This document shows positions 12,414 through 51,726 of a stretch of 64,000 nt of DNA, piece by piece. The position numbers were made by a program, and so were the translations under genes. Each line of letters opens with the position of its first letter. Position 1 is the first letter of the stretch. The DNA comes from Lotus japonicus (taxonomy: Eukaryota > Streptophyta > Magnoliopsida > Fabales > Fabaceae), in assembly GCF_012489685.1 (NCBI RefSeq), contig NC_080042.1, forward strand, positions 24,256,150-24,320,149, in the 5' to 3' direction. Under the pieces are notes generated by a model. It saw nothing but the letters and a program-made list of their open reading frames with translations. It was not told where the DNA came from and searched no databases.

Positions 12414-13971
12414 TGTAAGACCTGGATTTTCAGAACAAGCTAGTTTCCGACTCACGCGTAGAATCAGTGTAAGCGTGACAAGAGTTTGATATTTGAGGAA
12501 GATTAATGAAGAAGAAAGTTCAGGAATTGCTTGAGGAATGTTGCGTAGTTGTTTTCAGAGTTAGTGCGAGTCGTCTGCACACTTGCCTTAGGGCGAGCGT
12601 GTCCAGAATAGGCTATTTCGCTCTTAAAGCAACGTTTTGAGTGAGATTTCGAACTCTCGGAAAATTTAAAGATTCTCTTTATTTTTCCATCGACCAGCGT
12701 TTCATTTCGGAACTCTGGACTGTACGCACGATAGGTTTCACTTTTCGGATGTCCGCCGACGCTAATTTCTTTGCTTCGAAACCCTATTTTCGAGCAATGG
12801 ATGAAGACTTTTTCTATTCGGGACTTCTAACGAAGATTCCGTCCGCGCTGCCAGATTTTTTTCGACGTTTCCAATCTTTCTTCAGAAGGAAGTTTTGTCG
12901 TCCGACGATCACAGCAAAAAGTAGTTTTTCGGGACAGATTTAACTTACACCGCTTTTGAGATTTTCGATATCGTTTTTCCCATATCATAGATATTTGTTT
13001 TGAGTTCTGGATTTCTGACGCCAGAATCTCTCTTAGAATTCCTTGGTGAACGTGCTGCAAAAATCGGAATCGCGAAATTTTCATTTTTCCCGGGATTTCG
13101 CCCGCCTATAAATAGGCGAAAAAGCAAAATATCTTTCATTTTCCTCCATTAGTGGCCCAAATTCGTGGAGAGCAAGGGGGGAGGAGATTTTCGCGAAAAC
13201 TTGACCAATCTTCGTGCAGTTCGTCCCTACTTCTAGGTATCGAGGTAACTAACACGATTCCTACCTTTGATTGTTGTTTCTGTTGCGTTTCTAAAGTCGT
13301 TTATGTGCTCACAGTTTTGAGCTTTTTCTAAAATGGTTCGATTTCTTCGATTTCTTGGTTGGGTTATGTTCCTTACGTTCCCCTGAGTCTAAAACCTCTG
13401 TCAGTAAACGCTGATTGTGATCCAGTTGTCCAGGATCTGAAAAACTGTTTCAAAACCCTTTTTGTCTCACATTTCGAAACTTTATTGTCGAAAAGACTTA
13501 ATCTGACTTCGTGCCTTTAGGATTTGTTGTCACGGATGTCATGAGGATCATTGCTGTCAAATTTGTTTTCAGAACTGATAACTTTGAAGTTTTGAGCCTT
13601 TATTTTGGACCAAAATGCCCCTGGATAGTTGTATTTCGGCCCGATTGTCCGAAAATTGTTCCGACAGTTTCTTTGCCTTAGTTTTACCCTAAAACTACCT
13701 TGTAAACTGGTTTGATCGAAGAAAAAGAGCCGAAGCCCTTTTCTCCTTATGGCCGTGGGTTTTTCCTAAGGGGGGGGGGGGGAGTTTTTCGTTTTCGAAA
13801 ACTTGTCCTTTCGTACCCGTTTGTCGTATTCTGAAGCTTTGATGCTTTGTCTATCGTTTATGTATTGTTTTGCGATCGAACTAATCGATTTTGTTTGAAT
13901 TCTGCTTTGTTTTTCTCCGAGGTTCAGTTGAAGGAACTTTGGAATATTCAGAGCAACTGTTTGAGGACAAC
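12414..13971 (+). repeat. 5' part of Tekay-type gypsy LTR, copy in duplication unit 1
   Basis: Starts TGTAAGACCTGG after CTGAG and matches 17232-18789 and 24228-25785 base for base apart from scattered changes. It stops at the ACCTTG breakpoint, so it is a duplication fragment and not a separate insertion. The TATA box TATAAATAGG is at 13107-13116, inside the inverted repeat CGCCTATAAATAGGCG. A run of 12 G lies near 13771. Confidence 0.9.
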
Positions 13972-17231: not shown

Positions 17232-20200
17232 TGTAAGACCTGGATTTTCAGAACAAGCTAGTTTCCGACTCACGCGTAGAATCAGTGTAAGCGTGACAAG
17301 AGTTTGATATTTGAGGAAGATTAATGAAGAAGAAAGTTCAGGAATTGCTTGAGGAATGTTGCATAGTTGTTTTCAGAGTTAGTGCGAGTCGTCTGCACAC
17401 TTGCCTTAGGGCGAGCGTGTCCAGAATAGGCTATTTCGCTCTTAAAGCAACGTTTTGAGTGAGATTTCGAACTCTCGGAAAATTTAAAGATTCTCTTTAT
17501 TTTTCCATCGACCAGCGTTTCATTTCGGAACTCTGGACTGTACGCACGATAGGTTTCACTTTTCGGATGTCCGCCGACGCTAATTTCTTTGCTTCGAAAC
17601 CCTATTTTCGAGCAATGGATGAAGACTTTTTCTATTCGGGACTTCTAACGAAGATTCCGTCCGCGTTGCCAGATTTGTTTCGACGTTTCCAATCTTTCTT
17701 CAGAAGGAAGTTTTGTCGTCCGGCGATCACAGCAAAAAGTAGTTTTTCGGGACAGATTTAACTTACACCGCTTTTGAGATTTTCGATATCGTTTTTCCCA
17801 TATCATAGATATTTGTTTTGAGTTCTGGATTTCTGACGCCAGAATCTCTCTTAGAATTCCTTGGTGAACGTGCTGCAAAAATCGGAATCGCGAAATTTTC
17901 ATTTTTCCCGGGATTTCGCCCGCCTATAAATAGGCGAAAAAGCAAAATATCTTTCATTTTCCTCCATTAGTGGCCCAAATTCGTGGAGAGCAAGGGGGGA
18001 GGAGATTTTCGCGAAAACTTGACCAATCTTCGTGCAGTTCGTCCCTACTTCTAGGTATCGAGGTAACTAACACGATTCCTACCTCTGATTGTTGTTTCTG
18101 TTGCGTTTCTAAAGTCGTTTATGTGCTCACAGTTTTGAGCTTTTTCTAAAATGGTTCGATTTCTTCGATTTCTTGGTTGGGTTATGTTCCTTACGTTCCC
18201 CTGAGTCTAAAACCTCTGTCAGTAAACGCTGATTGTGATCCAGTTGTCCAGGATCTGAAAAACTGTTTCAAAACCCTTTTTATCTCACATTTCGAAACTT
18301 TATTGTCGAAAAGACTTAATCTGACTTCGTGCCTTTAGGATTTGTTGTCACGGATGTCATGAGGATCATTGCTGTCAAATTTGTTTTCAGAACTGATAAC
18401 TTTGAAGTTTTGAGCCTTTATTTTGGACCAAAATGCCCCTGGATAGTTGTATTTCGGCCCGATTGTCCGAAAATTGTTCCGACAGTTTCTTTGCCTTAGT
18501 TTTACCCTAAAACTACCTTGTAAACTGGTTTGATCGAAGAAAAAGAGCCGAAGCCCTTTTCTCCTTATGGCCGTGGGTTTTTCCTAAGGGGGGGGGGGAG
18601 TTTTTCGTTTTCGAAAACTTGTCCTTTCGTACCCGTTTGTCGTATTCTGAAGCTTTGATGCTTTGTCTATCGTTTATGTATTGTTTTGCGATCGAACTAA
18701 TCGATTTTGTTTGAATTCTGCTTTGTTTTTCTCCGAGGTTCAGTTGAAGGAACTTTGGAATATTCAGAGCAACTGTTTGAGGACAACCTTGATTTCGAAG
18801 CTGGAACAGCTCGAGGTTAGGGCAACTTGCTATATTTAGCTATGATTTCATGATAGGCGTCGATAAACTCGACCTATGCTTTATCTGATGTTGTATATGA
18901 TGATTGTTTCATAACTTATGATATTGATGATGTGTTGAATTGAGCGTTTTGACGCAACTTCGGAGTGGAGGTTCATTGATCCGGTGATCTTTGACATTCC
19001 GGGTTGGATGAACAAACCTAGGCAAGTCCAAATGTGGGGTTTGAGACTTAGCCATTTGTTGGGATTCGTTGGAATTCCTAGACTTTCCCCGGGAAATGTA
19101 TTTTGGGTGGTTGATTTTTGGAAACTTAGAATGATAGAGCTTTCGAAAAATAAAGACTTGGGAAACTTAGACTTTGAGAAATAAACTCATAATTTGACTA
19201 ATTTGAATTGAAATCATTTTTATTAACGTTTAAGCATAGGAGAACTGAAGGGGAAAAATATTTACGAAAGGCGGGGAAAAGTCGACCTTTGTTGTGGGTT
19301 TGGAGAGTTATCGGAATTGGGAAAGCCACTAAGGTGAGCTATGGTGATGATTGAAAGTCACCGAGTACGTTAGTACTCTTGGGGAGTGTTGTGGAGCCGT
19401 GTTGTATTGACCGACACCTAGTGATCTTGTTGTTTGGGCTGTGTTGTATTGACCGACACCTAGTGATCTTGTTGTTTGGGCTGTGTTGTATAGACCGACA
19501 CTAACTCTTGGGTTGTTTTGAGTTTGGGTCGGAGCAGTTTTTGACCATTGAGATTTGATGAGTCAGATGACTCAAGAAGTCATCAAGGGTGATCGCACTC
19601 CTTTCATAATTAATTGTCTTTTGTCGCCGAATCGATATATACCTTCGGGTACAGTATATACCTTCGGGTACAGTATATCTATATACCTTCGGGTACAGTA
19701 TATCTATATACCTTCGGGTACAGTATATACCTTCGGGTACAGTATATCTATATACCTTCGGGTACAGTATATACCTTCGGGTACAGCATGCCTTCGGGTA
19801 ACTCGGGCATTCGTTGGAGGGAAAAGTCGACCCGCAGGGTTAGGACTGATCCGACTATGTCAAGGTTGTAAGTGACACCCGAGGGTTATGGTCGGCACAA
19901 TGCTAGTGCTAGGACCGACTCGATCGTGCCCAGCCTATTTCTTCCGGAACCTTCTTAATTGACGTTGCATTGACATATCATGCACTCTAACTATATCTGT
20001 TGAGATATTGATGATTTGATGTTGATAAACATCGTTATGTGTTTTGATGATTGAATTGTATTAGGGAGTTGATACAATACATAACTTATATGTATATATA
20101 CAACATATATATATACCCCCTTTATCGCATGTTGATTGTATATCTATTGTATTCTGTAAGTTGACCCTAGCACCTTGGCTTTGTTTGTATGTTTGTGTTT

Positions 20201-20817
20201 GGGCGGTCGGCCTGCTGCCAGGCGTCTGTCAGCCGGTTCGTGATGATTCGTTGTGCGGGAAAGACCCGGAGCGAAATGTCTATTACTGAAGCTTTCGACG
20301 AGGACCCGGACTTCATGGCTGATCGAGGGAGAGTCGATAATAGTAGTGTGGGATATGGGTGGTTAGAGTCTTTTGAGTTGGTTGTCACTGTCATAGCTCT
20401 GATTCGTCTTACTTTTGGGACCGGGTAGGTTCCCGATATATGGCTTTTTGTGTGGTTCTCTTGCTGAGGATCACAGGGAGTCTGTCGGACTATAGGGGTC
20501 TTGGGTTGAGGCCATTTTGAGGCCGACTTTCTCTTGGATAGTGGTATATTTGATGCTTTTGCGTACAGTTCTGGTTTGTATATATTCGCCTACGGGCACG
20601 CTACCTTGGAGTCACTGCGTGTGCGCGTGACGGGATAGTGCAGCAGAGGCTGTACCTTTGTATATGTTGTTTATCGGTTAGTTTAGTTGTTGGGCTTTGT
20701 CTTTATTTCTTTATTGCTTTTATTAAAAGGAAACAATCAAAAAAAAAAAATTACCTGTTTTCCGCGTAAAGTTTATTTTTGGTTATTAAAGTAACACCTG
20801 GAAATCGGGGTGTTACA
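17232..20817 (+). repeat. 5' LTR of the non-autonomous gypsy element
   Basis: TGTAAGACC...GGGTGTTACA. The TATA box TATAAATAGG lies near 17925. The LTR contains a direct repeat around TTGTATTGACCGACACCTAGTG (about 19393-19500) and the hairpin array at 19637-19800. Its 3' end (AAATCGGGGTGTTACA) is shared with the minus-strand Tekay LTRs, so the families are related. Confidence 0.92.
19637..19800 (+). repeat. Array of ACCTTCGGGT hairpin units in 5' LTR
   Basis: Eight copies of CCTTCGGGTA, seven of them in the form TATACCTTCGGGTACAGTAT, spaced 18 or 25 bases apart depending on an extra CTATATA. In RNA each unit can form UACC-UUCG-GGUA, a stem closed by the very stable cUUCGg tetraloop. Confidence 0.85.
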
Positions 20818-24227: not shown

Positions 24228-27200
24228 TGTAAGACCTGGATTTTCAGAACAAGTTAGTTTCCGACTAACGCGTAGAATCAGTGTAAGCGTGACAGGAGTT
24301 TGATATTTGAGGAAGATTAATGAAGAAGAAAGTTCAGGAATTTCTTGAGGAATGTTGCGTAGTTGTTTTCGGAGTTAGTGCGAGTCGTCTGCACACTTGC
24401 CTTAGGGCGAGCGTGTCCAGAATAGGCTATTTCGCTCTTAAAGCAACGTTTTGAGTGAGATTTCGAACTCTCGGAAAATATAAAGATTCTCTTTATTTTT
24501 CCATCGACCAGCGTTTCATTTCGGAACTCTGGACTGTACGCACGATAGGTTTCACTTTTCGGATGTCCGCCGACGCTAATTTCTTTGCTTCGAAACCCTA
24601 TTTTCGAGCAATGGATGAAGACTTTTTCTATTCGGGACTTCTAAAGAAGATTCCGTTCGCGCTGCCAGATTTGTTTCGACGTTTCCAATCTTTCTTCAGA
24701 AGGAAGTTTTGTCGTCCGGCGATCACAGCAAAAAGTAGTTTTTCGGGACAGATTTAACTTACACCGCTTTTGAGATTTTCGATATCGTTTTTCCCATATC
24801 ATAGATATTTGTTTTGAGTTCTGGATTTCTGACGCCAGAATCTCTCTTAGAATTCCTTGTTGAACGTGCTGCAAAAATCGGAATCGCGAAATTTTCATTT
24901 TTCCAGGATTTCGCCCGCCTATAAATAGGCGAAAAAGCAAAATATCTTTCATTTTCCTCCATTAGTGGCCCAAATTCGTGGAGAGCAAGGGGGGAGGAGA
25001 TTTTCGCGAAAACTTGACCAATCTTCGTGCAGTTCGTCCCTACTTCTAGGTATCGAGGTAACTAACACGATTCCTACCTCTGATTGTTGTTTCTGTTGCG
25101 TTTCTAAAGTCGTTTCTGTGCTCACAGTTTTGAGCTTTTTCTAAAATGGTTCGATTTCTTCGATTTCTTGGTTGGGTTATGTTCCTTACGTTCCCCTGAG
25201 TCTAAAACCTCTGTCAGTAAACGCTGATTGTGATCCAGTTGTCCAGGATCTGAAAAACTGTTTCAAAACCCTTTTTGTCTCACATTTCGAAACTTTATTG
25301 TCGAAAAGACTTAATCTGACTTCGTGCCTTTAGGATTTGTTGTCACGGATGTCATGAGGATCATTGCTGTCAAATTTGTTTTAAGAACTGATAACTTTGA
25401 AGTTTTGAGCGTTTATTTTGGACCAAAATGCTCCTGGATAGTTGTATTTCGGCCCGATTGTCCGAAAATTGTTCCGACAGTTTCTTTGCCTTAGTTTTAC
25501 CCTAAAACTACCTTGTAAACTGGTTTGATCGAAGAAAAATAGCCGAAGCCCTTTTCTCCTTATGGCCGTGGGTTTTTCCTAAGGGGGGGGGGGAGTTTTT
25601 CGTTCTCGAAAACTTGTCCTTTCGTACCCGTTTGTCGTATTCTGAAGCTTTGATGCTTTGTCTATCGTTTATGTATTGTTTTGCGATCGAACTAATCGAT
25701 TTTGTTTGAATTCTGCTTTGTTTTTCTCCGAGGTTCAGTTGAAGGAACTTTGGAATATTCAGAGCAACTGTTTGAGGACAACCTTGATTTCGAAGCTGGA
25801 ACAGCTCGAGGTTAGGGCAACTTGCTATATTTAGCTATGATTTCATGATAGGCGTCGATAAACTCGACCTATGCTTTATCTGATGTTGTATATGATGATT
25901 GTTTCATAACTTATGATATTGATGATGTGTTGAATTGAGCGTTTTGACGCAACTTCGGAGTGGAGGTTCATTGATCCGGTGATCTTTGACATTCCGGTTT
26001 GGATGAACAAACCTAGGCAAGTCCAAATGTGGGGTTTGAGACTTAGCCATTTGTTGGGATTCGTTGGAATTCCTAGACTTTCCCCGGGAAATGTATTTTG
26101 GGTGGTTGATTTTTGGAAACTTAGAATGATAGAGCTTTCGAAAAATAAAGACTTGGGAAACTTAGACTTTGAGAAATAAACTCATAATTTGACTAATTTG
26201 AATTGAAATCATTTTTATTAACGTTTAAGCATAGGAGAACTGAAGGGGAAAAATATTTACGAAAGGCGGGGAAAAGTCGACCTTTGTTGTGGGTTTGGAG
26301 AGTTATCGGAATAGGGAAAGCCACTAAGGTGAGCTATGGTGATGATTGAAAGTCACCGAGTACGTTAGTACTCTTGGGGAGTGTTGTGGAGCCGTGTTGT
26401 ATTGACCGACACCTAGTGATCTTGTTGTTTGGGCTGTGTTGTATTGACCGACACTAGACCCTCGTGTAATCTTGTTGGTGGAGTTGTGTTGTATAGACCA
26501 ACACTAACTCTTGGGTTGTTTTGAGTTTGGGTCGGAGCAGTTTTTGACCATCGAGATTTGATGAGTCAGATGACTCAAGAAGTCATCAAGGGTGATCGCA
26601 CTCCTTTCATAATTAATTGTCTTTTGTCGCCGAATCGATATATACCTTCGGGTACAGTATATACCTTCGGGTACAGTATATCTATATACCTTCGGGTACA
26701 GTATATACCTTCGGGTACAGTATATACCTTCGGGTACAGTATATCTATATACCTTCGGGTACAGTATATACCTTCGGGTACAGCATGCCTTCGGGTAACT
26801 CGGGCATTCGTTGGAGGGAAAAGTCGACCCGCAGGGTTAGGACTGATCCGACTATGTCAAGGTTGTAAGTGACACCCGAGGGTTATGGTCGGCACAATGC
26901 TAGTGCTAGGACCGACTCGATCGTGCCCAGCCTATTTCTTCCGGAACCTTCTTAATTGACGTTGCATTGACATATCATGCACTCTAACTATATCTGTTGA
27001 GATATTGATGATTTGATGTTGATAAACATCGTTATGTGTTTTGATGATTGAATTGTATTAGGGAGTTGATACAATACATAACTTATATGTATATATACAA
27101 CATATATATATACCCCCTTTATCGCATGTTGATTGTATATCTATTGTATTCTGTAAGTTGACCCTAGCACCTTGGCTTTGTTTGTATGTTTGTGTTTGGG

Positions 27201-27814
27201 CGGTCGGCCTGCTGCCAGGCGTCTGTCAGCCGGTTCGTGATGATTCGTTGTGCGGGAAAGACCCGGAGCGAAATGTCTATTACTGAAGCTTTCGACGAGG
27301 ACCCGGACTTCATGGCTGATCGAGGGAGAGTCGATAATAGTAGTGTGGGATATGGGTGGTTAGAGTCTTTTGAGTTGGTTGTCACTGTCATAGCTCTGAT
27401 TCGTCTTACTTTTGGGACCGGGTAGGTTCCCGATATATGGCTTTTTGTGTGGTTCTCTTGCTGAGGATCACAGAGAGTCTGTCGGACTATAGGGGTCTTG
27501 GGTTGAGGCCATTTTGAGGCCGACTTTCTCTTGGATAGTGGTATATTTGATGCTTTTGCGTACAGTTCTGGTTTGTATATATTCGCCTACGGGCACGCTA
27601 CCTTGGAGTCACTGCGTGTGCGCGTGACGGGATAGTGCAGCAGAGGCTGTACCTTTGTATATGTTGTTTATCGGTTAGTTTAGTTGTTGGGCTTTGTCTT
27701 TATTTCTTTATTGCTTTTATTAAAAGGAAACAATCAAAAAAAAAAAATTACCTGTTTTCCGCGTAAAGTTTATTTTTGGTTATTAAAGTGACACCTGGAA
27801 ATCGGGGTGTTACA
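24228..27814 (+). repeat. 3' LTR of the non-autonomous gypsy element
   Basis: Begins TGTAAGACC after the polypurine tract and ends GTGTTACA before CTGAG. It differs from the 5' LTR in the spacing pattern of the hairpin array and in a segment near 26450-26490 that replaces one of the direct-repeat units. Confidence 0.92.
26639..26797 (+). repeat. Array of ACCTTCGGGT hairpin units in 3' LTR
   Basis: Also eight CCTTCGGGTA units, but with a different order of short and long spacers than in the 5' LTR. The spacers have been shuffled since insertion while the hairpin core is unchanged. Confidence 0.85.
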
Positions 27815-28299
27815 CTGAGTAAGATCATGTTTTTCTTATTTGCGTTATTGTAACACCCCGATTTCGGTGGCGTCACTTTAGTAACCAAAGGAAAATACTT
27901 TAAGCGGAAAAACGTGAATTATTTTTTTTCGACAATATAACTAAAGACAGAAAGCAATAAAACTCCCCAACAAAAGATAAAAGGAACTACTATACAACTA
28001 TATATACATGCCTCGTGACGGGTAACAGAAAAGAGTAACGCCCGAGGGCAATATGTACAGTCCAAGATAAAGATACTGTGTCCGCAACACTATCCTACAA
28101 AAACTGAGAGCAAGTTGGCCCAGCGGACTAAGAAAAGACCCCCTAAATCCAACCAGCTCTCTGCGATCTCCATAGGAAACCACACAAAAGCTACCGGTAG
28201 GAAAACTACCCTGTCCCCAAAAACGGAAGCATGACGGTCAGAGCATCGACACTACTCCTACACTATCCCTACCCGAGGAGCCCACACTAGCACTCGATC

Positions 28300-28782
28300 C
28301 TACACGCTAGCGCGGTCGTCATCCGAATCTGCATCCAGGACGACTAGGTCGACGTACTCAACACTGCCCTCTCTGTCCACCCTAATGCGCTCCCGCACTG
28401 GACTCTCGGGCTCGGGGCCCGGAACGAGATCCGCAACGACAGCAGCAGCAGTAGACGGACTAGACTCCGTCGAAGCCCCACCTACTGGCAACTCCTCAGA
28501 AGGATCCTCATCGTCTGAAGGAGATGGTGGCGGTGGAGGTACTCCCAAGCCGGGTCCACAGTGTACTCCTGGAGGCAGGTTGAAGCTCACTATGTGCCTC
28601 CTCATCACTCCCTCCGTCAAGCGTCCGAATCGATCGACACGGTCCTCCATGATCCGACCGGTGTAGGTCGCACGGTGGCCCTCGGGATCGACCACCCATG
28701 CACCTGGGTCGTCTTGGTCAAGCATCTCGTACCTGGTCCCCCCTGATGGGCTGACCATGGTAAACCAATCCCCCATACTCAT
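28300..28782 (-). CDS. LTR-encoded ORF, copy A (160 residues), SIM-like C-terminus
   Basis: Sense-oriented ORF inside the LTR; ATG at 28780-28782, stop at 28300. The product starts MSMGDWFTMVSPSGGTRYEM, continues DQDDPGAWVVDP, HRATYTGRIMED, FNLPPGVHCGPG, a PPPPP/acidic linker, and ends DLVVLDADSDDDRASV. The homologous ORF in the Tekay 3' LTR (42774-43253) keeps these blocks. In the 13 codons around FNLPPGVHCGPG there are seven synonymous and no amino-acid changes. The 18 codons before the ATG show four changes, all amino-acid-changing, which supports this start. LVVL followed by an acidic Ser/Asp tract resembles a SUMO-interaction motif. I recognise no named family; function is unknown. Confidence 0.7.
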   Translation of the reverse strand: MSMGDWFTMVSPSGGTRYEMLDQDDPGAWVVDPEGHRATYTGRIMEDRVDRFGRLTEGVMRRHIVSFNLPPGVHCGPGLGVPPPPPSPSDDEDPSEELPVGGASTESSPSTAAAVVADLVPGPEPESPVRERIRVDREGSVEYVDLVVLDADSDDDRASV

Positions 28783-29504
28783 CTGACAAATGGCGTAGTC
28801 CGCCCAAACACACACAGCAGACGCGAGGGTCAACTCCAAAGAATTATATAATTAATAAAACCAGATATAATTATAGGATAATAAATACTCGCCTCTCAGG
28901 CTTATAAGTTTTGGGATAGCTTCCTAGGGTTACATGTATCACAATAAATATAAAGAGCCATAAAACAAGTAGCATGCCTCAAAAAAAATAGGTTAAACAG
29001 TTACCAATCACACTCAGCAACTAAGTTAGCATGTATGTTGCATGAAATGCAATGCTGGGTAACAAAATGCATTCCGGAAGAAGGATGGACATCAACGAGA
29101 CGGCCCTAACACCAGCCACGGTGGGTACCTTCCTGCTCGCGTGTCTCTTACACCACACAAAAGTAGTCAGATCAGCAGTGAACCCGTAGGTCTGCCATTC
29201 CGTCTGCTACTGAGGACCACCGTAGTGTCCTAAATATGGAAATCCGGGTCTTATGACCATTTTGGAATCCACCGAGGTCCGGTATCACGCCGTGTATTAA
29301 CCTCAAAATGAGTGCATGAATGCAAGTGATTAGCCAAACAACGTCTCCGACCTCACCCGACACGTCGCCACGTGTTCTAGATTAACTTAAAGTCTCTAAA
29401 AGAATACCCTAAGGTAAATGTCGATTCTGCGACAAAATACAATTAATCATAAACAAAAGAGTGCAACCACTCACGACAACTCTTCGAGTCATCAATGCTC
29501 TCAC

Positions 29505-29755
29505 GAAGTCTCACGCTTCTGTGGAGTCTCACACATTCACAAAGTCTCACGCTTCAGTGAAGTTTTATGCTTTCACAAGGTCTCACGCCTCAGTGAATTT
29601 ACACACTTGCACGAAGTCTCACGCTTCAATGAAGTTTCATGCTGTTCACGAGGTCTCACGCCTCAGTGAAGATCCATGCTTTCCACAAGGTCTCACGCCT
29701 CAGTGGAGTATCACGCATTCACAAGGTCTCACACCTCCGTGAAGCTTCTCGGCTC
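29505..29755 (-). repeat. 36-bp minisatellite in solo LTR
   Basis: Seven units of about 36 bases, each with GTCTCACGC(C/T)TC and usually followed by AGTGAAG, at 29508, 29544, 29580, 29617, 29653, 29690 and 29726. The apparent ORFs here only reflect the period being a multiple of three. Confidence 0.85.
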
Positions 29756-31286
29756 ATCCCTTGGATGGCTAAACAATTGCTCCCAGAGCGAATGAGTATT
29801 AACATACCCAAAACTCGAAATCTTCCCAACACTTGGATCCGACGACACTTCTCATTTTCCAAAACTAAACTTCAATCCAAAGCTTGCATCCGTGATTGTT
29901 ATCTTTATTTAAAGGTTTAGAGGTTGTTTAATATCTTATGAATTTCTTTATAAAAATAGCTTTTTTTTGTCTTATCGTATTCCCTATGAGTTCAAAGTTC
30001 CCATAAACCCAAGTAATTCCCTGAGAAGGTCTCGATCCATTGGAGCATGACAAGGTCCGAACTCCGTTCGTCCTTTTTAAAACTCTCTCAAAATCTCATA
30101 AAAATTCGGCATGACCTGCCCGCAATCCTCACTTTTCAGAATCTCAGGTACAAGTGTAATAGCATCATTGAAACAGCTCAACCAAAAGACATAAACAGCA
30201 TATTCCAACACATCCTAAGTTAACCATGTAGCACATAGCATGTGAATCATTTAGCACACAATATCATGGCATCAAGTACTCAACAAGTTCGGCCGAAGCC
30301 TCAGAAATCATTTCAGACATTTAGCAATTAGGTGCATAACACATAAATCAAGTCGAATTTCATCGACACCTAAAGCATTATCTAGTAATTCAGAGAGTAG
30401 CCCTCACTGGTGGGTCTTCCAGCTTCCTCCTCCAAATGTTCTTCAAGCTCTTCTCCTTGGTTTCTTGGAATCTCCTCAAACGAACCTTAAGCAAAAATCA
30501 CAGAAATCAACACCAAGAGTCAGAAACTCAGCAATCAAAGAGTCCTAGGGTTACACAGTACACTACTACCTCCGTGGTACGACAATCTAACGCGTTAAGA
30601 CAAGTTTTCGAAAAATCGGATTCTCCTCCCCCCTTGATATAGCTCTCGGCCACTTTCCTTAATTGGGAGGGTCGATTTTTCTTCGATCAAACTTGGTTCC
30701 TAGGTTAACATAAGCCGTAACTAAGACGGTTCTAGGCTCGGAAAAATTTTCGGATCGAAAACTGATATAGGGGTAGTTTGGTCATTATTTTTAGCTCAGA
30801 ATTTCAAAATTGGATTTTTGAAAAACAAATTGGATGGGGACGTCCACAACGACGTTTATGACGACAAATCCTACTAGCACTAAGCCAAGTCGATAGATTA
30901 GAGCGTAAAGGTTGCGACTTTGCCGAAAAATGGGTATTTAGGGTAGAAATTGATCCCGGCGGCATTTCGTCGACATTTGACAAAATCTAATCCGCAGAAC
31001 ACGCTCAGGAGCATGCAGGGAAGAAGTTTAGACGCTGAAATCAACTGATTTGAACAGTTTTTCAAAAACCTCAAAATTTTGAACTCAGAAAGTCGCAGGA
31101 GAAATGGACAGAAACGACGATTCGAAGGAGAGTATAGATTACCTACCTCGAGGTCTTCGATTAGTGACGAACGGTGAAGCAAACGGGCAAGAAACGACGA
31201 AGATCCGGATCTCTCTCTCTCTCTAGAAACTCGCGGCTTGGAGGGGTGGGGAAAATGGGTTTTGTGAAAAAATCTAATTTTTCAAG

Positions 31287-31296
31287 CTATTTATAG
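31287..31296 (-). promoter_or_regulatory. TATA box of solo LTR
   Basis: Minus strand reads CCTATAAATAGC, about 675 bases into the LTR, matching the TATA position in the related LTRs. Confidence 0.6.
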
Positions 31297-32060
31297 GTTT
31301 TGGAAAAAAACGGAAAAATGATTTTTTTGCGATTCCGATTTTTCCTGCGCGTTCCTCTGCGCATTCTAAGACAGGTTCTGGCGACAGAATTCCAGAACTC
31401 AAAATAGTATTCTTGGAATTAAACCAAAAGATCCAAAATCGGCATAGGTCGGTGTAAGTCGGTTTATCCCGAAAAACTACTTTTTGCAGTGATCGTCGGA
31501 TGAGAAAACTTCCTTCTGAAGAAAGATTAGGAATGATGAGAGAAGTAGGAGAACGCGGGTGGAATCTTCATTTGAGTTTCCGGATAGAAAAAGTCTTCAT
31601 CGTCTGTCGATCTTAGGTTTTTCGAACTATCAGGGATTCCGTTTCGGCAGACTTCCGAGAATTGGAATTTGACGTTCGTACATTCCAGGATTTCGCATCG
31701 AAATGGTTGTTTAAGGACGGAAAAGAGAAGTTCTAACATTTCTCTGAGGATTTTTGGAATTAGTTTCCATCGTGTCCTAAAGCGTAAATTAACTATTCAC
31801 TAATACCTTCGACCTAGGATTTAGCGTATGTTAATCGTGCTATAACTCTTTCGGTTTTTCGATACATTCTTGGACTTTTCCTGAGCCTCTTTCCTTCCCA
31901 AATTTATCTTAATCAAATAACTCTTTTATTTTATTCACTTATCCAAAGCGTTAAAACTTGGGCCTTACAGTTATCATTGAGTTTTGGTATTTCTTTGTCT
32001 ATTTCTTGCTTACACTAATTTTGCCATGTTCCTTTCCTAAAATTCAGTTTTATGTTACAG

Positions 32061-42285: not shown

Positions 42286-42773
42286 TGTAACACCCCGATT
42301 TCGGTGGCGTCACTTTAGTAACCAAAATAAACTTAATGCGGAAAAACGTGAATATTTTTTTTTTTTAATAATAACTAAGACAAGACGGAATTAAATAAAA
42401 CCCAACAATAACAAAAATCAGAATTAATATACAATATATAAACAGCCCCCGCTGTAGTAGCAACCTCGTCACGAGTAACCTCCAGTGACGGAAAGAAAAG
42501 TGCAACGCCCGTAGGCAATATATACAAACCAAATGAAAAGGGTGAAGTGCCCGCAACACCATCCCTCAAAACTGAGAATCAGCTGACCCAATGGCCTGAA
42601 AATAAGACCTCCTAAGTCCAACCAACTCTCTGTGATTCCCGTAAGGAAACCACACAAAAAGCTATAGGCGGATCTACCCTGTCCCCTACGTAACAAATGA
42701 AGCAAGACTGTCAGAGCTAAAACTCTACTCCTACACTAATCCTAACTCGAGGAGCTCATACCAACACTCAAAA

Positions 42774-43253
42774 CTATGTGCTAGCATGATCGTCGTCTGA
42801 ATCAGAATCCAGAACGACCAAGTCTACCAACCCTATCCGTCCTCCCCTCGTAACCGCAGTACGCTCCGATGCTGGACTCACGGGCTTAAGGCCCGAACCC
42901 TGATCATCGATGATCGCAACAGAGGGTGCACTAGACCCTGCCGAAGGCACTCCCACTGGACTCTCCTCTGAGGGATCCTCCTCCTCTGAAGATGACGGTG
43001 GCGGCGGTGCTCCTCCGAATCCTGGTCCACAGTGAACGCCCGGTGGCAAGTTGAAGCTGATAGAGCATCGCCTCAACACTCCTGACCTCAAGAGTCCTCC
43101 ACTATCCACGTGGTCCTCCATGATACGCCCCGAATACGTCGCTCGGTGGCTCGCGGGGTCAACCACCCACGACCCGGGGTCGTCCTGGTCGATCATCTCG
43201 TACCTAATCCCCCCCGAAGGGTGGACCATTGCGAACCAATCCGCAATGTTCAT
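42774..43253 (-). CDS. LTR-encoded ORF, copy B (159 residues), SIM-like C-terminus
   Basis: Homologue of the ORF at 28300-28782, at the same distance from the LTR 3' end; ATG at 43251-43253. Starts MNIADWFAMVHPSGGIRYEM, then DQDDPGSWVVDP, HRATYSGRIMED, FNLPPGVHCGPG, a Pro/Glu/Asp linker and a C-terminus DLVVLDSDSDDDHAST. Many codons differ from copy A only at silent positions (for example D-Q-D-D-P-G, H-R-A-T-Y, D-L-V-V-L-D). The open frame extends further upstream, but that part is not shared in copy A, which has no upstream in-frame ATG. The ORF would lie in the long R/U5 leader of the genomic RNA, about 2.3 kb after the likely start site and before gag. Function unknown. Confidence 0.7.
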   Translation of the reverse strand: MNIADWFAMVHPSGGIRYEMIDQDDPGSWVVDPASHRATYSGRIMEDHVDSGGLLRSGVLRRCSISFNLPPGVHCGPGFGGAPPPPSSSEEEDPSEESPVGVPSAGSSAPSVAIIDDQGSGLKPVSPASERTAVTRGGRIGLVDLVVLDSDSDDDHAST

Positions 43254-43922
43254 CTGACAAAAGGCGTTGTCCGCCAAAACACACACAGAAGACGCGAGGG
43301 TCAACTCTAAAGAACTATGTAGATAATAAACCCAATAGGTACAAATAATAGATAGCCACTTAGGCTTATAGCTAAAGATATCATTCCTAGGGTTGCATGT
43401 TCCACAATAACATGAACGCAATAATAACACTTAGCATGTTACAAGTAAGATAATCAAATAGCAATCACACTCAACCACTAAATTAGTATGCATGTTGCAT
43501 GATATGTATGCAGGTTAACCCAGTCAACCAATATGCAATCCGGAACGGATGGACATCAACGGATCAGCCCTTCACCAGCCACGGTGGTGCCATTTCGGCC
43601 CGCGTGCCTCTTACTCCAACAACAACGGTAGTCAGATCAGCCGTAACCCGTAGGTCTGCCATTTCGGTCTGCTACAAGAGACGTCTACAGACGCTCTATC
43701 ACGGAAATCCGGGTCTTATGACCATTTTGGAATCCGACGAGGTCCAGAGTACGTCCTGTGTTAATACCCCATTAATGTTGCATGAATGCAAGATGCTTAG
43801 TCAAACAACGTCTCCGTCCTCACTCGACACGTCGCCACGTGTTCTAGGTAAATTAAAGTCTCTAAAATCTTACCCTAAGGCAAAGTCGATTCTGCGACAA
43901 AAGACACACTTCACAACACACA

Positions 43923-44082
43923 TCGCTGCTCCAACAGCACAAGAGTATCACATACTCGGGAACTAACGGTTCCCCGGACTTATCCCCAGGATAGCCCAAC
44001 AACATCGCTGCTCCAACAGCACAACAACCAACGCTGCTCCAACAGCACAACAACAAACGCTGCTCCAACAGCACATCAACAA
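43923..44082 (-). repeat. 26-bp minisatellite in the Tekay LTR
   Basis: CGCTGCTCCAACAGCACA at 43925, 44006, 44032 and 44058; the last three are tandem with a 26-base period. It occupies the place where the solo LTR carries an unrelated 36-bp array. Confidence 0.85.
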
Positions 44083-45603
44083 CAGACTCAACACTTGGAT
44101 CCGACGACACTTCTCGTTTTCCAAAACTATGATTTTCATCCAAAGCCTCCTTTCGAGATTATTACCCTTACTTAAATATTTAGAGGTTGTTTAATGTCTT
44201 ATGAATTTTCTTTTCAAAATAATATCCTTTTTCGTCTTATCGCAATTCCTATAAGTTCTCGGGATCTTCGAATCCCCAAATGACTCCAGAGAATGTCTCG
44301 ATCCATAAACCCTATACAAGGCCCGAACCTCGTTCGTCCTATCAAACTTTCTCAAAACTCTCAAAATAAAATCGGCATGACCTGCCCGCTATTCTCACCA
44401 TTCAGAATCTCAGATTTTCAGTGTAAAGCATATTTAAAACATCACAATCAACAACATGTCATATATCAATAAATCGCGTCATAAACACTTAGCACTTAGC
44501 ATATAAAGCATGCACCACACATCCTAGATTACCCACATAGCACATAGCATGTAAGTCAATCTTCAAAAACATTCAGTAGATGAATCATCTACATTGTCAG
44601 CCGAAGCCTCAGAAAACATTTTCAATCACACACAATCTCAGTGCATAAACAGTAAACAATGTCGAAATATCGACCCTAAGCATTAACTAGAGATTCAGTG
44701 AGAAGCCCTCACCTGAAGGTTCTCCAGCAAAAACTTCAAACTCTTCTTCACAAGCAAGGTGTTGATCCTCAGGAAATTCCTCAAAATCACCTTTAGAACA
44801 AAACCACAAAAATCAATCAGAATCTATCGGAAACTAAGCTATCGATACTTACTAAGGTTACTCGAAGTAATCTATACTCTAAGGTACGATAATCTAGCGC
44901 GAAAAGACAAGTTTTCGGAAAAGGAAAATTTCCTCCTCCCCCCTTATAGCTCTCGGCCACTATAGGTAATTGTAGGGTTCGATTTTTCTTCGATCAAACT
45001 TGGTTCCTATGCTTTCATAAGCCGTAACTAAGGGTATTCTGAACTCGGAAAAATTATCGGATCAAAAACTGTCGCAGGGGTATTTTGGTCATGATTTTTA
45101 ACTTAGGATTTTCAAAACTGAAATCCCAAAAATAAAATTTTGCAGGGACGTCACCAACGACGTTCATAACAACTAATCCTACTAGCACTAAGCTAAGGCG
45201 ATAGTTTACAGCCTAAAGATTGGAGCTTTACACCAAAAACTACATAAATGGGTATTTTAGGCTCAAATTGATTCCGACGGAATTCGGCGACATAACGGAA
45301 AATCTAATCCGGCAGAAGTGATCTTGGGCATACATAGAAGAGGTTTAGAATCAGAAATGAAAGATTCAGGATAGTTTTGCAAAAACCCATAAACTATCCA
45401 CTCAGAAAACTCTACAGAAAAGCTATGGAAAAAGCGATCGGAGGTAAGGATTAGCGACTATACCTCGAAGCCTTGAAGTAGCAACTGATTGATCGACGAT
45501 CAAGAAAACGATGAAGAAAAACTCTTCTTCCTTCTTCCTTGTTCTTGGCCGCGGTTTAGAGGAGAGAAAATGGAGGAAAATTGTGTTTTTTCTTCCTTTG
45601 TTT

Positions 45604-45614
45604 GCTATATATAG
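45604..45614 (-). promoter_or_regulatory. TATA box of the Tekay LTR
   Basis: Minus strand reads CTATATATAGC about 720 bases into the LTR. Confidence 0.6.
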
Positions 45615-46330
45615 AAGGTGGAAATTCGCGGGAAAATGAAAGTTCCGCGAATCCGATTTTTCCGGCGTCATTCACCATGAATTCTAAGATAGGTTTTGGC
45701 AAAGGAATTCCCAAGCTAAGAAGATGTCTCCTTGTATTTTTGGCAACTAATGCAAAGTCGGTGCAAAGTCGGTGTAAAACTATTTTACCCGATAAGTTGC
45801 TTTTTGCCTCGAATGTCGGAATGGAAAACTTCCTTCTGAAGAAAGATTGAAATCATCAAGAGAAATGGGTGTACGCGTGTGGAATATTCATTTGAAGCTC
45901 TGAATAGATAAAGTCCTCAAAGTCGGGAAATTCTAGGGTTTTGAAATACCAGGGATTCGGTTTCGGCAAACTTCCGATGATTGGAATCGGACGTTCGTAG
46001 ATCCTAGAGTTTCGCCTCGAAACGATTGTTATATATGGAAGAAGAGAAATTCTAACATTTCTCTGAAGATTTTTGGAATTAACTGCCAGCGTGCCTAAAA
46101 GTGAAAATTAGCTATATACTAGGGTTTCTGACCTAGGTTTAAGCGTAAAACGTTCGTGCTATAACTTTTATCGATCATAATGAAATCCTTGAACTTTTCC
46201 TGAACTTTCTCCTTCATAAATATATTTCATTTAATAAACTTTCGTTCAGGTTTCCCTTCACATTACATCAACCCTAATCGTGAATAAAAAGTTTATTCAC
46301 TTAACATAAGCCTAAAACTCGGGCCTTACA

Positions 46331-46367: not shown

Positions 46368-49300
46368 TTAAGGGTTAGTAAATAGTTCTGGATATTGTTC
46401 TTGAATCTTCTCCTTCAGCTCCCATGTCGCATCACCAGTGTCTTTGTTCCAAATGACCTTCACTAGCTCGATCTCTTTCCCTCTCAACTGTTTTATCCTG
46501 GTGTCACCAATGCTAATTGGCGGTGTCTCGAAAGACAGATCATCCTTCAACTCAATGTCATCCAGCTCGATAACATGTGTCGGATCCGCAATATATTTCC
46601 TCAGTTGTGACACGTGGAATACGTCATGAATGTTTGATAGAAATGGAGGTAGTGCAATCTGATATGCGACTGGTCCAATTCGACGAGTGATCTGATACGG
46701 TCCAATGAACTTGGGCGTAAGCTTCTTTGACTTGATTGCTCGACCAACACCCGTCGTCTGAGTAACTCTCAGAAATACATGATCTCCTTCTTCGAACTCC
46801 AGAGTTCTGCGCCTCTGATCTGCATAACTCTTCTGTCTACTCTGAGAAGTCCTCATCTTCTCTCTGATCTGCTTGATCCTCTCAGTGGTCTGTTGCAGAA
46901 GTTCCGGTCCTACCAACAGATTTTCTCCGTTTTGGTACCAACACAAAGGTGTTCTACACTTGCGGCCATACAAAGCCTCATACGGTGCCATACCAATGCT
47001 CGTATGAAAACTGTTGTTGTATGTGAACTCAATCAATGGCAATAAGGTATCCCAACTCCCCTTGTTGTCCAGAACGCAAGCGCGTAGCAAATCCTCCAAC
47101 GACTGAATAGTTCTCTCAGTCTGTCCATCAGTCTGCGGATGATAAGCAGAACTTAGTCTCAGCCTTGTTCCCAAAGCCTCTTGAAGAGCTCCCCAAAAAT
47201 GTGATGTAAACTTCGGGTCTCGATCGGATACAATACTTGTCGGTACTCCGTGAAGTCGTACAATCTCCGCTATATATAACTCTGATAGTTTCTCCACGTT
47301 GTACGTAGTCCTCACCGGTACGAAATGAGCCGACTTAGTCAGTCGATCCACGATTACCCAAATAGAATCGTATCCCTTCTGAGTTCTTGGCAAAGCCACA
47401 ACGAAATCCATCGATATGCTATCCCATTTCCATTCTGGCACATCCAAGCTTTGTAGCATACCTGAAGACTTCTGATGTTCCACCTTCGCCTTCTGACATG
47501 TCAAACATGCGGCTACATACTCAGCCACTTGTCTTTTCATTCCTGGCCACCAAAAATTCATCTTCAAGTCTTGGTACATCTTCTTCATTCCAGGATGAAT
47601 GCTTAACTTGCTCTTGTGACCTTCATCCATAATCAATCTTCTCAATTCAGGGTTGTTAGGCACACAAACCCTATCCTTGCACCGTAGGATGTTGTCACTT
47701 CCTACCTTGAATTCTGGGTCTTTACCTTGACTTACCAAATTCCTTTTCCCGAGCAGAAACTCATCTTGTAACTGTTGATCTCGGATTTCTTCCATCAATC
47801 CATTGGTAATTCTGATCATCCCGAACTTCAGTTCTCCCTCGGACAATCTCACATCCAAGCTCAAATCTCGAAATTGCTCTAACAGCTGCAGCTCCTTCAC
47901 CATCATCGACGAGATGTGCATCTTCCTGCTCAAGGCATCAGCAACAACGTTCGCCTTTCCAGGATGATATTGTAGAGTGAACTCGTAATCTTTAAGAAAC
48001 TCCATCCACAGACGCTGCCTCATGTTCAGCTCCTTCTGCTCAAACAAGTACTTCAAGCTCTTATGATCACTGAATATAGTGAAATTGCATCCATACAAGT
48101 GATGCCTCCAAATCTTCAGTGCAAATACGATCGCAGCTAGTTCCAAGTCATGAGTTGGATAATTCTTCTCATGCACCTTCAGTTGTCTTGAAGCATAAGC
48201 AACCACCTTCCGATGTTGCATCAGCACACATCCCAAACCTTGATATGAAGCATCACAGTATACCTCATAAGGTTCCTCCGGTTGCGGTAAGACGAGTACA
48301 GGTGACGTCGTCAACCGTTCCTTCATCGTCTGAAAGCTAGTCTCGCACGCTTCAGTCCATGCAAAAGGTTGGTCCTTCCTCGTCAGTTGAGTCAAAGGTC
48401 CAACTATCTTCGCGAAATTCTCGATAAAACGGCGATAGTATCCCGCCAAACCGACAAAACTTCTGATCTCCGTCACTGTCTTCGGCCGTTCCCATGACAA
48501 TACGGTCTCCACCTTTGCTGGGTCCACAGCTATTCCCTCCTTAGAGATCACATGACCTAAGAATTTTACCTCTTCGAGCCAAAATTCGCACTTGGAAGGA
48601 TTGGCATACAACTCCTTCTCCCTCAGCACTTGTAAAACTTGTCGCAAGTGCTCCTCGTGGTCTTCGGCATTCTTCGAGTAGATTAAGATATCGTCGATAA
48701 ACACCACGACGAATCGATCCAGGAACGTATGAAAAGTCATATTCATGTAAGCCATGAATATTGCAGGTGCGTTCGTTACCCCAAATGGCATCACTAAGTA
48801 CTCATAGTGTCCATAACGGGTTCTGAATGCCGTCTTCTGGATATCCTCGGTCTTGACCCTGATTTGATGATAACCCGACTTCAGGTCGATCTTCGAGAAT
48901 ACCGTAGCTCCTCGCAGTTGATCCATCAAATCATCAATCCTAGGTAACGGATACCTATTCTTGACGGTTACTTTGTTCAGTTGCCGGTAGTCGACACATA
49001 ATCTCGATTTCCCGTCCTTCTTCTTCACCAATAAGACTGGAGCTCCCCAAGGTGAAACGCTTGGTCGTATGAATCCCTTCGACAGAAGATCTTCGAGTTG
49101 GGACTTCAGTTCCACTAGCTCCGCAGGTGCCATACGATATGGTGCAATCGAAATCGGCCCTGTTCCCGGTACGATGTCTATAGCAAACTCAATGTCGCGC
49201 ACAGGCGGCAATCCAGGTACATCGCCAGGAAAAACATCAGTGAATTCTTTCACCACTGGAATACTGCCAACTTCTGGGTTCCCTTTGCTCTCCAAGCTTA

Positions 49301-50807
49301 GCAAAACAGAATACTCCTGAGATCCCTCGTTCAAAGCGACGCTGATGTGATTGGCAGATAGATACTCGGAAAGATCTGAATCAGGAAATACCACTCTCTT
49401 TCGGTTGCAGTCCAAAAGACAATGATAGCGGGACAACCAATCCATTCCTAGGATAACATCTAGGTTCTTAAGAGTTAGGCATACTAGGTTAGCATGGTAG
49501 ATCCTATTGTTGTATGTTATCGGACAATACATGCATGCTGAATTAGCAAGTAGAGTCTTGGCAGGAGTAGCAACTATCAGATCGAAGCTCAAAGCAGTAA
49601 TGGGAAGTCTTAATCTGATCGCACACTCTCTAGAGATAAAAGAATGCGTTGCACCGGAATCAAAAAGTACGGATAGAAGGTTACCGTCAATCTCGCCGTC
49701 GCCTCTAATCAGTCCATCGACCCCCTCAGCATCCTCACCATCCATGGTGTAGACTCTCGCCTTCGCAGCAGGACGCTTCCCTCGGGCAGTGTTGACGGCT
49801 GATTCCGCCTTTGGTACCTTGCACTGTGCCGCAGTATGCCCCAGTTTGTTACAGTTGTAACATTGAGGTCTCGTGTCGGGACAATCACGAGCATAATGCC
49901 CTTGCTTTCCACACTTGAAGCAAGTCAGTTCCCGGTTCTGAGTCTGACCTCCTGAACCACCAGCAGCACCCACCATGGGCCTGTAAGATCCCGAAGCAAA
50001 TCCCCTACCAGCAGGACGCTGATATGGCCTCCTGTTCTGAAACCTTCCCCTGTTCTGAATATTCTGGGAGCCCGACCTCATCGGCCCTCCAGTTCCAGCC
50101 CGGTTCAACCTCCGGTTCTTCATCAGCTCCACTTCCGTGGCTTTCTCCACCAATGATTGGAATCGCATGATTCCCAGTGGCCTCACTGAGTCCTCAATAT
50201 CCGGCCTCAGTCCATTCACGAAGCGCTTGCACATGTAGCGCTCGTCAACATGATCATTAAAGAATTGGAAATGCTTCGCCAAAGACTCCAGCTTCGAAGC
50301 AAATTCCGGTACAGACATACCTCCCTGACGGAGGGTTAGAAACTGTGACTCCCGCTCATCCCGAGCACTAGTTGGAAAGTATTTCTCCAAGAATGCGTCC
50401 CGGAAAGAGTTCCAGTTAACCTCTTCATGGTTGGCTTCCATGATCCCCTTGTGGCCCTTCCACCAGTACTCGGCATCACCGAGCAACAGATAAGTCGCCA
50501 TGCCCACCTTGGCACCCTCAACAGTCTGTAGGACGCCGAATATCTTTTCAACCTCCTGAATCCAGAGATCTGCTTTGTCTGGATCAGTACCACCAGAGAA
50601 CTTGGGTGGGTTTTGCCTCCTGAAGTCATTGAGGCCTTTGTTCTGGTCCAGAGTTATTTCCCTCTGGCGCTGATGTTGTTCACGTGCTTCTTCAGTAGCA
50701 CGCCTCATGGCATTATCATTTGCCTGGGCGGTTACCGCTTGGGCCTGCGCTGTTACCGCTTGGGCCATAGTGGCCATCATCTCAGCTAGCTGGTTATTAT
50801 TCACCAT
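46368..50807 (-). CDS. gag-pol: Tekay gag-pol polyprotein, 1479 residues, intact
   Basis: One uninterrupted frame from ATG 50807. Gag capsid region at about residues 75-240 ([28 protein letters not shown]); two zinc knuckles [14 protein letters not shown] (about 294) and [14 protein letters not shown] (about 315). Protease [12 protein letters not shown] near 380. RT with [20 protein letters not shown] and catalytic FIDD near 703 (IDD at 48690-48698). RNase H with [13 protein letters not shown] and [12 protein letters not shown]. Integrase zinc region ([11 protein letters not shown]...CLTCQKAK) and DDE core ([40 protein letters not shown]). The tail [20 protein letters not shown] is chromodomain-like, thought in this lineage to guide integration to chromatin. 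All catalytic residues I can see are present. Gag and pol share one frame, so no recoding is needed. Confidence 0.95.
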
Positions 50808-51006: not shown

Positions 51007-51018
51007 GCTCTGATACCA
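51007..51018 (-). other. Primer binding site of the Tekay element (tRNA-iMet type)
   Basis: Minus strand TGGTATCAGAGC, three bases from the LTR edge at 51022. Confidence 0.85.
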
Positions 51019-51021
51019 CAA

Positions 51022-51185
51022 TGTAACACCCCGATTTCGGTGGCGTCACTTTAGTAACCAAAATAAACTTAATGCGGAAAAACGTGAATATTTTTTTTTT
51101 TAAATAATAACTAAGACAAGACGGAATTAAATAAAACCCAACAATAACAAAAATCAGAATTAATATACAATATATAAACAGCCCC
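51022..51185 (-). repeat. 5' LTR of the Tekay element, partial
   Basis: Begins TGTAACACCCCG and matches 42286-42450 almost perfectly until the gap. Confidence 0.9.
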
Positions 51186-51285
51186 NNNNNNNNNNNNNNN
51201 NNNNNNNNNNNNNNNNNNNNNNNNNNNNNNNNNNNNNNNNNNNNNNNNNNNNNNNNNNNNNNNNNNNNNNNNNNNNNNNNNNNNN
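51186..51285. other. Assembly gap (100 N)
   Basis: Exactly 100 N, a standard size for a gap of unknown length. The left side is inside a Tekay LTR and the right side inside Sirevirus pol, so at least the rest of the LTR and of the copia LTR is missing. Confidence 0.99.
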
Positions 51286-51726
51286 ATGCCATACCCACTG
51301 CTCTTCATTAACAGACAGAAGGCACTTCACATTCTGAGCCTCCAACTCAGATAATCTGATCTTATAAATGTTGTTCTTCCTCTTGCTGTTAAACAGAACA
51401 GAGCCATCGATCTGACTTACAGCCCGGCAGGACTTTTGATTGAATATAACATCATAACCCTTGTCAGCTAATTGACTTATAGACAATAAGTTATGTGTTA
51501 AGCCGTCTACCAATAAAACATTATCAATGCATGGACTACTATCTACACAAATAGTACCAGTACCAATAATTTTACCCTTTTCATTTCCTCCAAAGCCAAC
51601 TTCGCCTCCAGGCTTAAGTTTCAGCTCTCGGAACATACGCTTTTCTCCCGTCATGTGACGCGAGCATCCACTGTCCAGATACCATGATTGGTGTTTCAGT
51701 GGAGCTATCAAGGATATCTGCAACAT
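51286..51726 (-). CDS. pol: Sirevirus pol, N-terminal fragment
   Basis: Starts with the same residues as the plus copy ([20 protein letters not shown]), has the protease DSG motif and [15 protein letters not shown], and reaches the GAG-pre-integrase motif NEEQWVWH, where the gap begins. The frame is +1 relative to gag, overlapping it between 51614 and 51726. Translation from the ATG at 51726 is only nominal: protease-integrase is normally made as a gag fusion or by recoding. Confidence 0.85.

Follow-up and report, generated by a model that had tools for sequence, protein, structure and literature searches.

An open reading frame within long terminal repeats

The window analysed here is a stretch of 64,000 nucleotides of Lotus japonicus contig NC_080042.1, which holds on its minus strand a Ty3-type retrotransposon, element A, with gag-pol, the polypurine tract (PPT) and the 3′ long terminal repeat (LTR) in this order (Table 1). 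In the 3′ third of this ~4-kb LTR, and at the same place in a solo LTR of a second family, L, there is an open reading frame (ORF) in the sense of gag-pol, located 488 nt (A) and 451 nt (L) before the LTR end. An earlier reading of the letters alone (the sequence-only reading) had proposed that these ORFs represent a protein-coding gene under purifying selection; the coordinates it gave were right, and both ORFs are on the minus strand. The carrier features found were one gag-pol frame (protease, reverse transcriptase, RNase H and integrase), a primer binding site (PBS) and long LTRs ending in TG...CA. We take the PBS and LTR ends of element A to be typical of Tekay. A Pfam chromodomain match was not found in its gag-pol at E 0.001; the C-terminus may resemble a type II chromodomain.

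The LTRs of A and L were 73.8% identical over 1665 aligned columns and 70.0% over 2195, and each contained its own tandem array (43997–44084 in A, 29497–29748 in L), in line with the earlier description of diverged LTRs with unrelated minisatellites. By the NG86 method, the ratio of nonsynonymous to synonymous divergence (dN/dS, ω) between the two ORFs was calculated to be 0.211 (dN 0.234, dS 1.11), with 35, 32 and 73 differences at the three codon positions. The ω value was 0.12 for the first 80 codons and 0.34 for the remainder. The silent changes that had been noticed by eye were recovered: 7 of 13 codons differed in SFNLPPGVHCGPG, 3 of 6 in DQDDPG, 3 of 5 in HRATY and 2 of 6 in DLVVLD, all silently, and the four codons that differed among the 18 before the ATG all altered the residue. 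In-frame windows of 40 codons inside the ORF gave ω of 0.18, 0.30, 0.66 and 0.38. Nine in-frame windows upstream of the ATG gave 0.63 to 1.35, so that with the ATG as boundary, as had been suggested, ω changed from 0.87 just before it to 0.18 just after. Downstream of the stop the four windows gave 0.71, 1.17, 0.28 and 1.03, the low value coming from a small window of only 26 codons. When the same changes were placed at random in 5000 trials, none matched the observed pN/pS or third-position count, and a stop-free result was obtained in 3.2%. An ordinary non-coding LTR was rejected by the in-frame window and random-placement tests.

ORF length taken alone was weak evidence of coding: the region is GC-rich (0.38 in the 200 nt upstream, rising to 0.58 and 0.60 in the ORFs), and ORFs at least as long appeared in 7/300 and 13/300 block shuffles of the LTRs. 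These figures would suit a chance open frame, or a constraint acting at the level of DNA or RNA. Such a non-coding explanation is nevertheless extremely improbable in view of the third-position excess, the edges of constraint at the ATG and stop, the single frame-keeping indel and the recurrence of the pattern in three families. Three of the 53 indels outside the ORF were multiples of three, and the sole indel inside it was 3 nt long. The sequence-only reading had named a silent-only pattern in all frames as a sign against coding. For most other frames this pattern was absent (ω of 1.04 to 1.71, with stops); the exception was antisense frame −1 (ω of 0.32, with 3 and 1 stops), which mirrors the wobble positions. 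CpG enrichment was also rejected as an explanation, the observed/expected ratio being 0.91 and 0.84 in the ORFs and 0.99 in the rest of the LTRs.

As a yardstick, gag-pol of element A was compared with that of an L-family element on genome contig C1, giving ω of 0.046 and dS of 0.90. The similar dS of the ORF (1.11) implied that it diverged together with gag-pol; judged by ω, the constraint on the ORF is weaker than that on gag-pol, but clear. For a third family, C, ω of the ORF was 0.33 against A and 0.16 against L, with synonymous sites near saturation (pS of 0.64 and 0.74). Within the C family, the mean ω was 0.25 over 66 pairs of 12 copies; these had the highest scores among the 150 that were scored out of 7415 candidates. 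The proposal of a protein-coding gene inside LTRs under purifying selection thus held for the A–L pair, beside the gag-pol yardstick, in the third family and across many copies.

The ORF family in the genome

The own genome of the plant was searched (553.7 Mb in 65 contigs). With the 160-aa protein of family L (P0002), no stops were found among the best 150 of 8224 candidates; many of these copies were 100% identical and many were paired ~8.79 kb apart. At four boundaries per pair, all five L-family pairs checked showed TGTAAGGCCC starts, GGTGTTACA ends, PBS, PPT and matching 5-bp target-site duplications (TSDs). A second subfamily encodes 222 aa (P0011); stops were present in 9 of the best 150 of 7415 candidates, and its copies were also paired, ~8.66 kb apart. 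Element C of this subfamily has a 3994-bp LTR, a PBS and the TSD CCGCT on both sides. A third genome search found stops in 5 of the best 150 of 9066 candidates. The ORF was present in both LTRs of the five L-family elements checked and of one C-family element, and a location in the internal region of the element was rejected by the boundary check. The C1 place that supplied the gag-pol yardstick was left out of this count because its upstream LTR is incomplete; here (G000:C1:67940780-67953900, L009-L011) tandem L-family elements were observed, in which a shortened copy and the incomplete LTR are followed by a complete gag-pol with its 3′ LTR. At the sequence level, these comparisons demonstrated that an ORF of ~160 codons (222 in the second subfamily), carried in both LTRs and in a solo LTR, was kept while the LTR families diverged.

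Several annotated Lotus ‘uncharacterized proteins’ were found to belong to the ORF family. Since NCBI annotates these relatives as ordinary Lotus genes, it might be supposed that the ORF was captured from the host, or that selection on host copies elsewhere than in LTRs maintains it, with the LTR copies as passengers. We consider this highly improbable: in the A–L comparison the ORF has the same dS as gag-pol, the copies lie in LTR pairs in two subfamilies (the LTR context being checked for a subset of copies), and every relative named in the protein searches was from Lotus japonicus, none from another organism.

Predicted three-exon structure of the LTR

A TATA box was predicted at the same alignment column in families A, L, B and C. 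The ORF follows it at a distance of 2.2 to 2.5 kb. This fits the earlier placement of the ORF in the R/U5 leader ahead of gag, if the box marks the start of transcription. Four predicted splice sites were aligned in all four families, namely CGAG^GTA, a T-rich run with AG^GT, GT(G/T)AGGGC and CAG at the ORF start (^ marks the junction). The background retention in the A leader was 29 of 170 GT and 16 of 146 AG kept in both L and B. The middle exon was 78 nt in every family, and predicted exons 1 and 2 were free of ATG in all four, compared with 45, 47, 38 and 46 ATGs in the introns. In 11 of 12 copies of the 222-aa subfamily the ATG was preceded by CAG.

Intron 2 was located with the help of an NCBI protein model, P0003, while intron 1 was found from A and L alone and afterwards recognised in B, C and P0003 too. 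The model fits three of the four predicted splice sites. It opens with MQ; residues 3–28 (VLLRRFLENKEKSVKDTWRRKLEDPP) are what exon 2, read between acceptor 1 and donor 2, encodes at 4/4 loci; the ORF comes next, joined at CAG^ATG. None of the 150 scored matches (the best 150 of 9066) extended upstream of residue 28 beside the ORF. Taken together, the alignments strongly indicated that the LTR is built as a spliced three-exon gene with its own promoter, a layout that is an addition to the sequence-only reading. Because predicted intron 2 ends at CAG^ATG, the spliced mRNA would have a short AUG-free leader with the ATG of the ORF first.

Family B, represented in the window by two LTRs, still has the TATA box, each of the four splice sites and the 78-nt exon 2, although the ORF is gone. 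The acceptor sequence of the 222-aa subfamily copies was kept, with no ORF after it. The internal part of this element is only 3410 bp and its two LTRs are 98.7% alike. Judged by these features, family B is a young, ORF-less, internally shortened derivative of the 222-aa subfamily. A further LTR start was observed at 12414. The tails of two short protein records, P0015 and P0016 (ALIRFAFGTG), match the B LTR at 20396–20425 (idx 3165–3194 of the LTR), downstream of the ORF site (ALIRLTFGTG, E of 5e-4); by this match, the two records resemble LTR-borne ORFs that have undergone internal deletion.

The retention of TATA box, splice sites and exon 2 without the ORF in family B would also be expected if the introns served gag-pol, that is, if splicing of the leader removed upstream AUGs for gag and the ORF were a translated, mainly regulatory upstream cistron. 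The A leader has few ATGs after the ORF, two within the LTR and three more before gag, which points the same way. This explanation is unlikely all the same, as amino-acid constraint over 160 codons exceeds the need of a regulatory upstream ORF and the predicted acceptor lies exactly at the ORF ATG.

Table 1. Positions of the retrotransposon features and predicted gene parts in the window
Feature	Position	Strand	Remarks
LTR-encoded ORF, family A (P0001)	42774..43253	−	159 aa; stop included
LTR-encoded ORF, family L (P0002)	28300..28782	−	160 aa; stop included
3′ LTR of element A	42286..46330	−	4045 bp; directly after PPT
Intact gag-pol frame, element A	46368..50807	−	1479 aa
PBS, element A	51007..51021	−	TGGTATCAGAGC
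3′ remnant of 5′ LTR, element A	51022..51185	−	cut by N run 51186–51285; adjoins PBS
Predicted TATA box, LTR A	45604..45613	−	column shared by four families in the alignment
Predicted exon 1, LTR A	45464..45581	−	assumed start 32 nt beyond the first base of the TATA box; ATG-free
Predicted intron 1, LTR A	44791..45463	−	673 nt; GTATAG...CTAAAG
Predicted exon 2, LTR A	44713..44790	−	78 nt; no ATG
Predicted intron 2, LTR A	43254..44712	−	1459 nt; GTGAGG...GTCAG; ends directly before ORF ATG
Solo LTR of family L	27849..31969	−	4121 bp; TSD ATAAC at 27844–27848 and 31970–31974
Predicted exon 1, LTR L	31147..31263	−	no ATG
Predicted intron 1, LTR L	30486..31146	−	661 nt
Predicted exon 2, LTR L	30408..30485	−	78 nt; no ATG
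Predicted intron 2, LTR L	28783..30407	−	1625 nt; ends CAG^ATG
LTR of family B	17232..20817	+	retains TATA box, the four splice sites and exon 2 (78 nt); lacks ORF
Second LTR of family B	24228..27814	+	likewise without ORF

Other features of the window were also observed. An ORF of 155 aa lies on the opposite strand at 43499–43966 (+) within predicted intron 2 of LTR A, and none that long was present at the matching place in L. Inverted copies of a Ty1/copia-type element, 97% identical, occupy 1–2172 and 51286–53457, the latter directly following the N run by which element A has lost most of its 5′ LTR from view. A 733-aa ORF at 5937–8138 (+) had no Pfam match at E 0.001.

The protein product

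Neither of the two proteins initially compared with Pfam had a match, nor did any of the 16 compared later. Against the sequences of solved structures only five weak matches were obtained, to a 26S proteasome subunit (best E 0.077), and none with a profile; Foldseek returned no matches at E 0.001 in either PDB or BFVD, and searches of viral contigs and of bacterial and archaeal genome contigs were without result. The isoelectric points of the 12 proteins analysed were 4.1 to 4.7. Residues 21–70 were predicted to be beta-rich (in the P0011 model, with pLDDT of ~80 there and a mean of 58.7 overall), and this N-terminal part is followed by a Pro/Ser/acidic linker. A first AlphaFold model (mean pLDDT 49) was not used further. 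A C-terminal hydrophobic core with an acidic-serine run was present in 12 of 16 aligned members, P0013–P0016 being without that end. Fusion-like or internally shortened rows were dropped from the alignments (P0008 and P0010 from A2; P0008, P0010 and P0019 from A4 and A6).

Comparison with known systems

An extra sense ORF (ORF0) ahead of gag-pol has been reported in Retrosat2, RIRE3 and RIRE8, with Ka of 0.26 compared with 0.08 for gag-pol at similar Ks (PMC3485330), and a 5′aORF is known in sunflower Tekay (group 2) and grasses (PMC11728184). The Lotus ORF resembles these in belonging to the same lineage with long LTRs, in its sense position before gag-pol, in purifying selection weaker than that on gag-pol and in the lack of a known domain; it lies between the predicted TATA box and gag, as the position of the Tekay ORF0/5′aORF requires. 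The relation of its constraint to that of gag-pol is much as that of ORF0 to ORF1 in rice, as far as the accessible text of PMC3485330 goes. The sizes differ, 402 aa in sunflower and 160 or 222 aa in Lotus. A sequence match to ORF0/5′aORF did not come up in the protein searches, in which no direct comparison with ORF0 proteins was made. The sequence-only reading knew of no LTR-encoded protein described for Tekay elements. This needs the amendment that extra ORFs ahead of gag were already known in the lineage, though in the accessible parts of PMC3485330 and PMC11728184 ORF0 and 5′aORF are described as upstream of gag-pol and placement in the LTR is not stated. Extra ORFs of plant LTR retrotransposons are known, and a review, in the part available, refers to the internal region for them (PMC7264820). 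Among the titles and abstracts listed by searches of the open-licence PMC literature, none described a gene inside a plant Tekay LTR.

The mouse mammary tumour virus (MMTV) sag gene, which encodes a membrane superantigen, is also located inside the LTR, in U3. The Lotus protein is likewise encoded inside the LTR, but its ORF comes after the predicted TATA box, and its product is acidic and soluble-looking. A U3 position as in MMTV sag was rejected because of the distance of the ORF downstream of that conserved box.

Revolver of Triticeae, by the published descriptions available, consists of exons measuring 342, 88 and 292 bp, separated by introns with lengths of 750 and 1237 bp; it encodes 139 aa and has a TATA box, ends (TGT...ACA) that resemble those of LTRs, and a 3′ part related to LARD LTRs (PMC2851119, PMC3203089). 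The Lotus LTR is similar in its TATA box, three exons, two introns, short middle exon (78 nt compared with 88), small ORF and TG...CA ends, whereas the whole Lotus ORF is in exon 3. Revolver was published, in these accounts, as a DNA-transposon-like gene and not as an LTR, and the likeness is to the published description. By this analogy, Revolver may be another LTR-resident gene of this kind.

In a study covering ten genomes and 2432 Del elements, neither ‘ORF’ nor ‘open reading frame’ occurs in the accessible text; eudicot LTRs are reported there to be without CpG islands, but some LTRs of grasses to have one at the 3′ end that is highly conserved (PMC4029996). The GC-rich conserved 3′ stretches of the LTRs in grass Del groups VII–IX, as described there, sit where the Lotus ORF sits and could hide coding sequence.

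Proposed function and implications

Very probably, the sequence comparisons indicate, the LTRs of these Lotus Tekay/Del-type Ty3 elements carry a genuine accessory gene under purifying selection, with an apparently three-exon build. Transcription would start from the TATA box near LTR position 700, and intron 1 (~0.67 kb) and intron 2 (~1.3 to 1.6 kb) would carry away the upstream AUGs, while unspliced RNA would stay the genome that restores full LTRs. The accessory protein might keep LTR promoters active, perhaps as a counter-silencing factor. Anti-silencing VANC proteins of VANDAL transposons are mentioned in PMC11728184 and PMC12844716, in the parts accessible. The role proposed here for the Lotus protein would be analogous; VANDAL elements are, unlike the Lotus carriers, DNA transposons, and a sequence link between VANC and the Lotus protein was not found. 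As an acidic accessory protein, the product might bind a partner through its beta-rich N-terminus, and SUMO or sumoylated silencing factors through its C-terminal VDLVVLDSDSDDD-type motif, unless that motif acts as an acidic activator; we hold this assignment to be rather doubtful.

Several observations weigh against the accessory gene or parts of it. The ω value is higher (0.34) in the linker half of the ORF, a single pair within the C family (C/L032) gave 0.51, and since genomic copies were picked by best score, the sample leans to intact frames. Two random segments of the same sizes as exons 1 and 2 were ATG-free in 241/5000 (A) and 289/5000 (L) trials, and the four LTR families are related, so they are not four independent cases. 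The first two residues of P0003, MQ, were not traced, which leaves acceptor 1 less firmly supported than donor 2 and acceptor 2. The sole cDNA-like record, P0014 (97 aa), is a shortened form, and no retrocopy carrying the spliced junction of the C type turned up (0 matches). The SUMO-type C-terminal motif was weakly supported: seven of eight tails match the pattern, as do 52 to 173 of 2000 shuffles, and P0002 itself fails it. Finally, family B lost the ORF while its copies are young, implying that it is dispensable in cis.

When located in the LTR, a gene is present twice per element and persists after a solo LTR has formed; leftover LTRs could therefore provide the product in trans. A wider extension, possible though more doubtful than probable, is that every Tekay-type LTR, solo LTRs included, is a self-contained three-exon gene acting in trans. 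Revolver would then be the solo LTR of such an element, and LTR genes would be old and overlooked in the lineage, in monocots as well as eudicots; the conserved 3′ CpG islands of grass Del LTRs may be among them (PMC4029996).

LTRs count as regulatory DNA and are masked because they are held to be non-coding. If a high-copy LTR holds a conserved and apparently spliced gene, solo LTRs and ‘orphan’ legume gene models would have to be read differently, and a genetically tractable legume would offer a direct model for a retrotransposon family that might act in trans against silencing.
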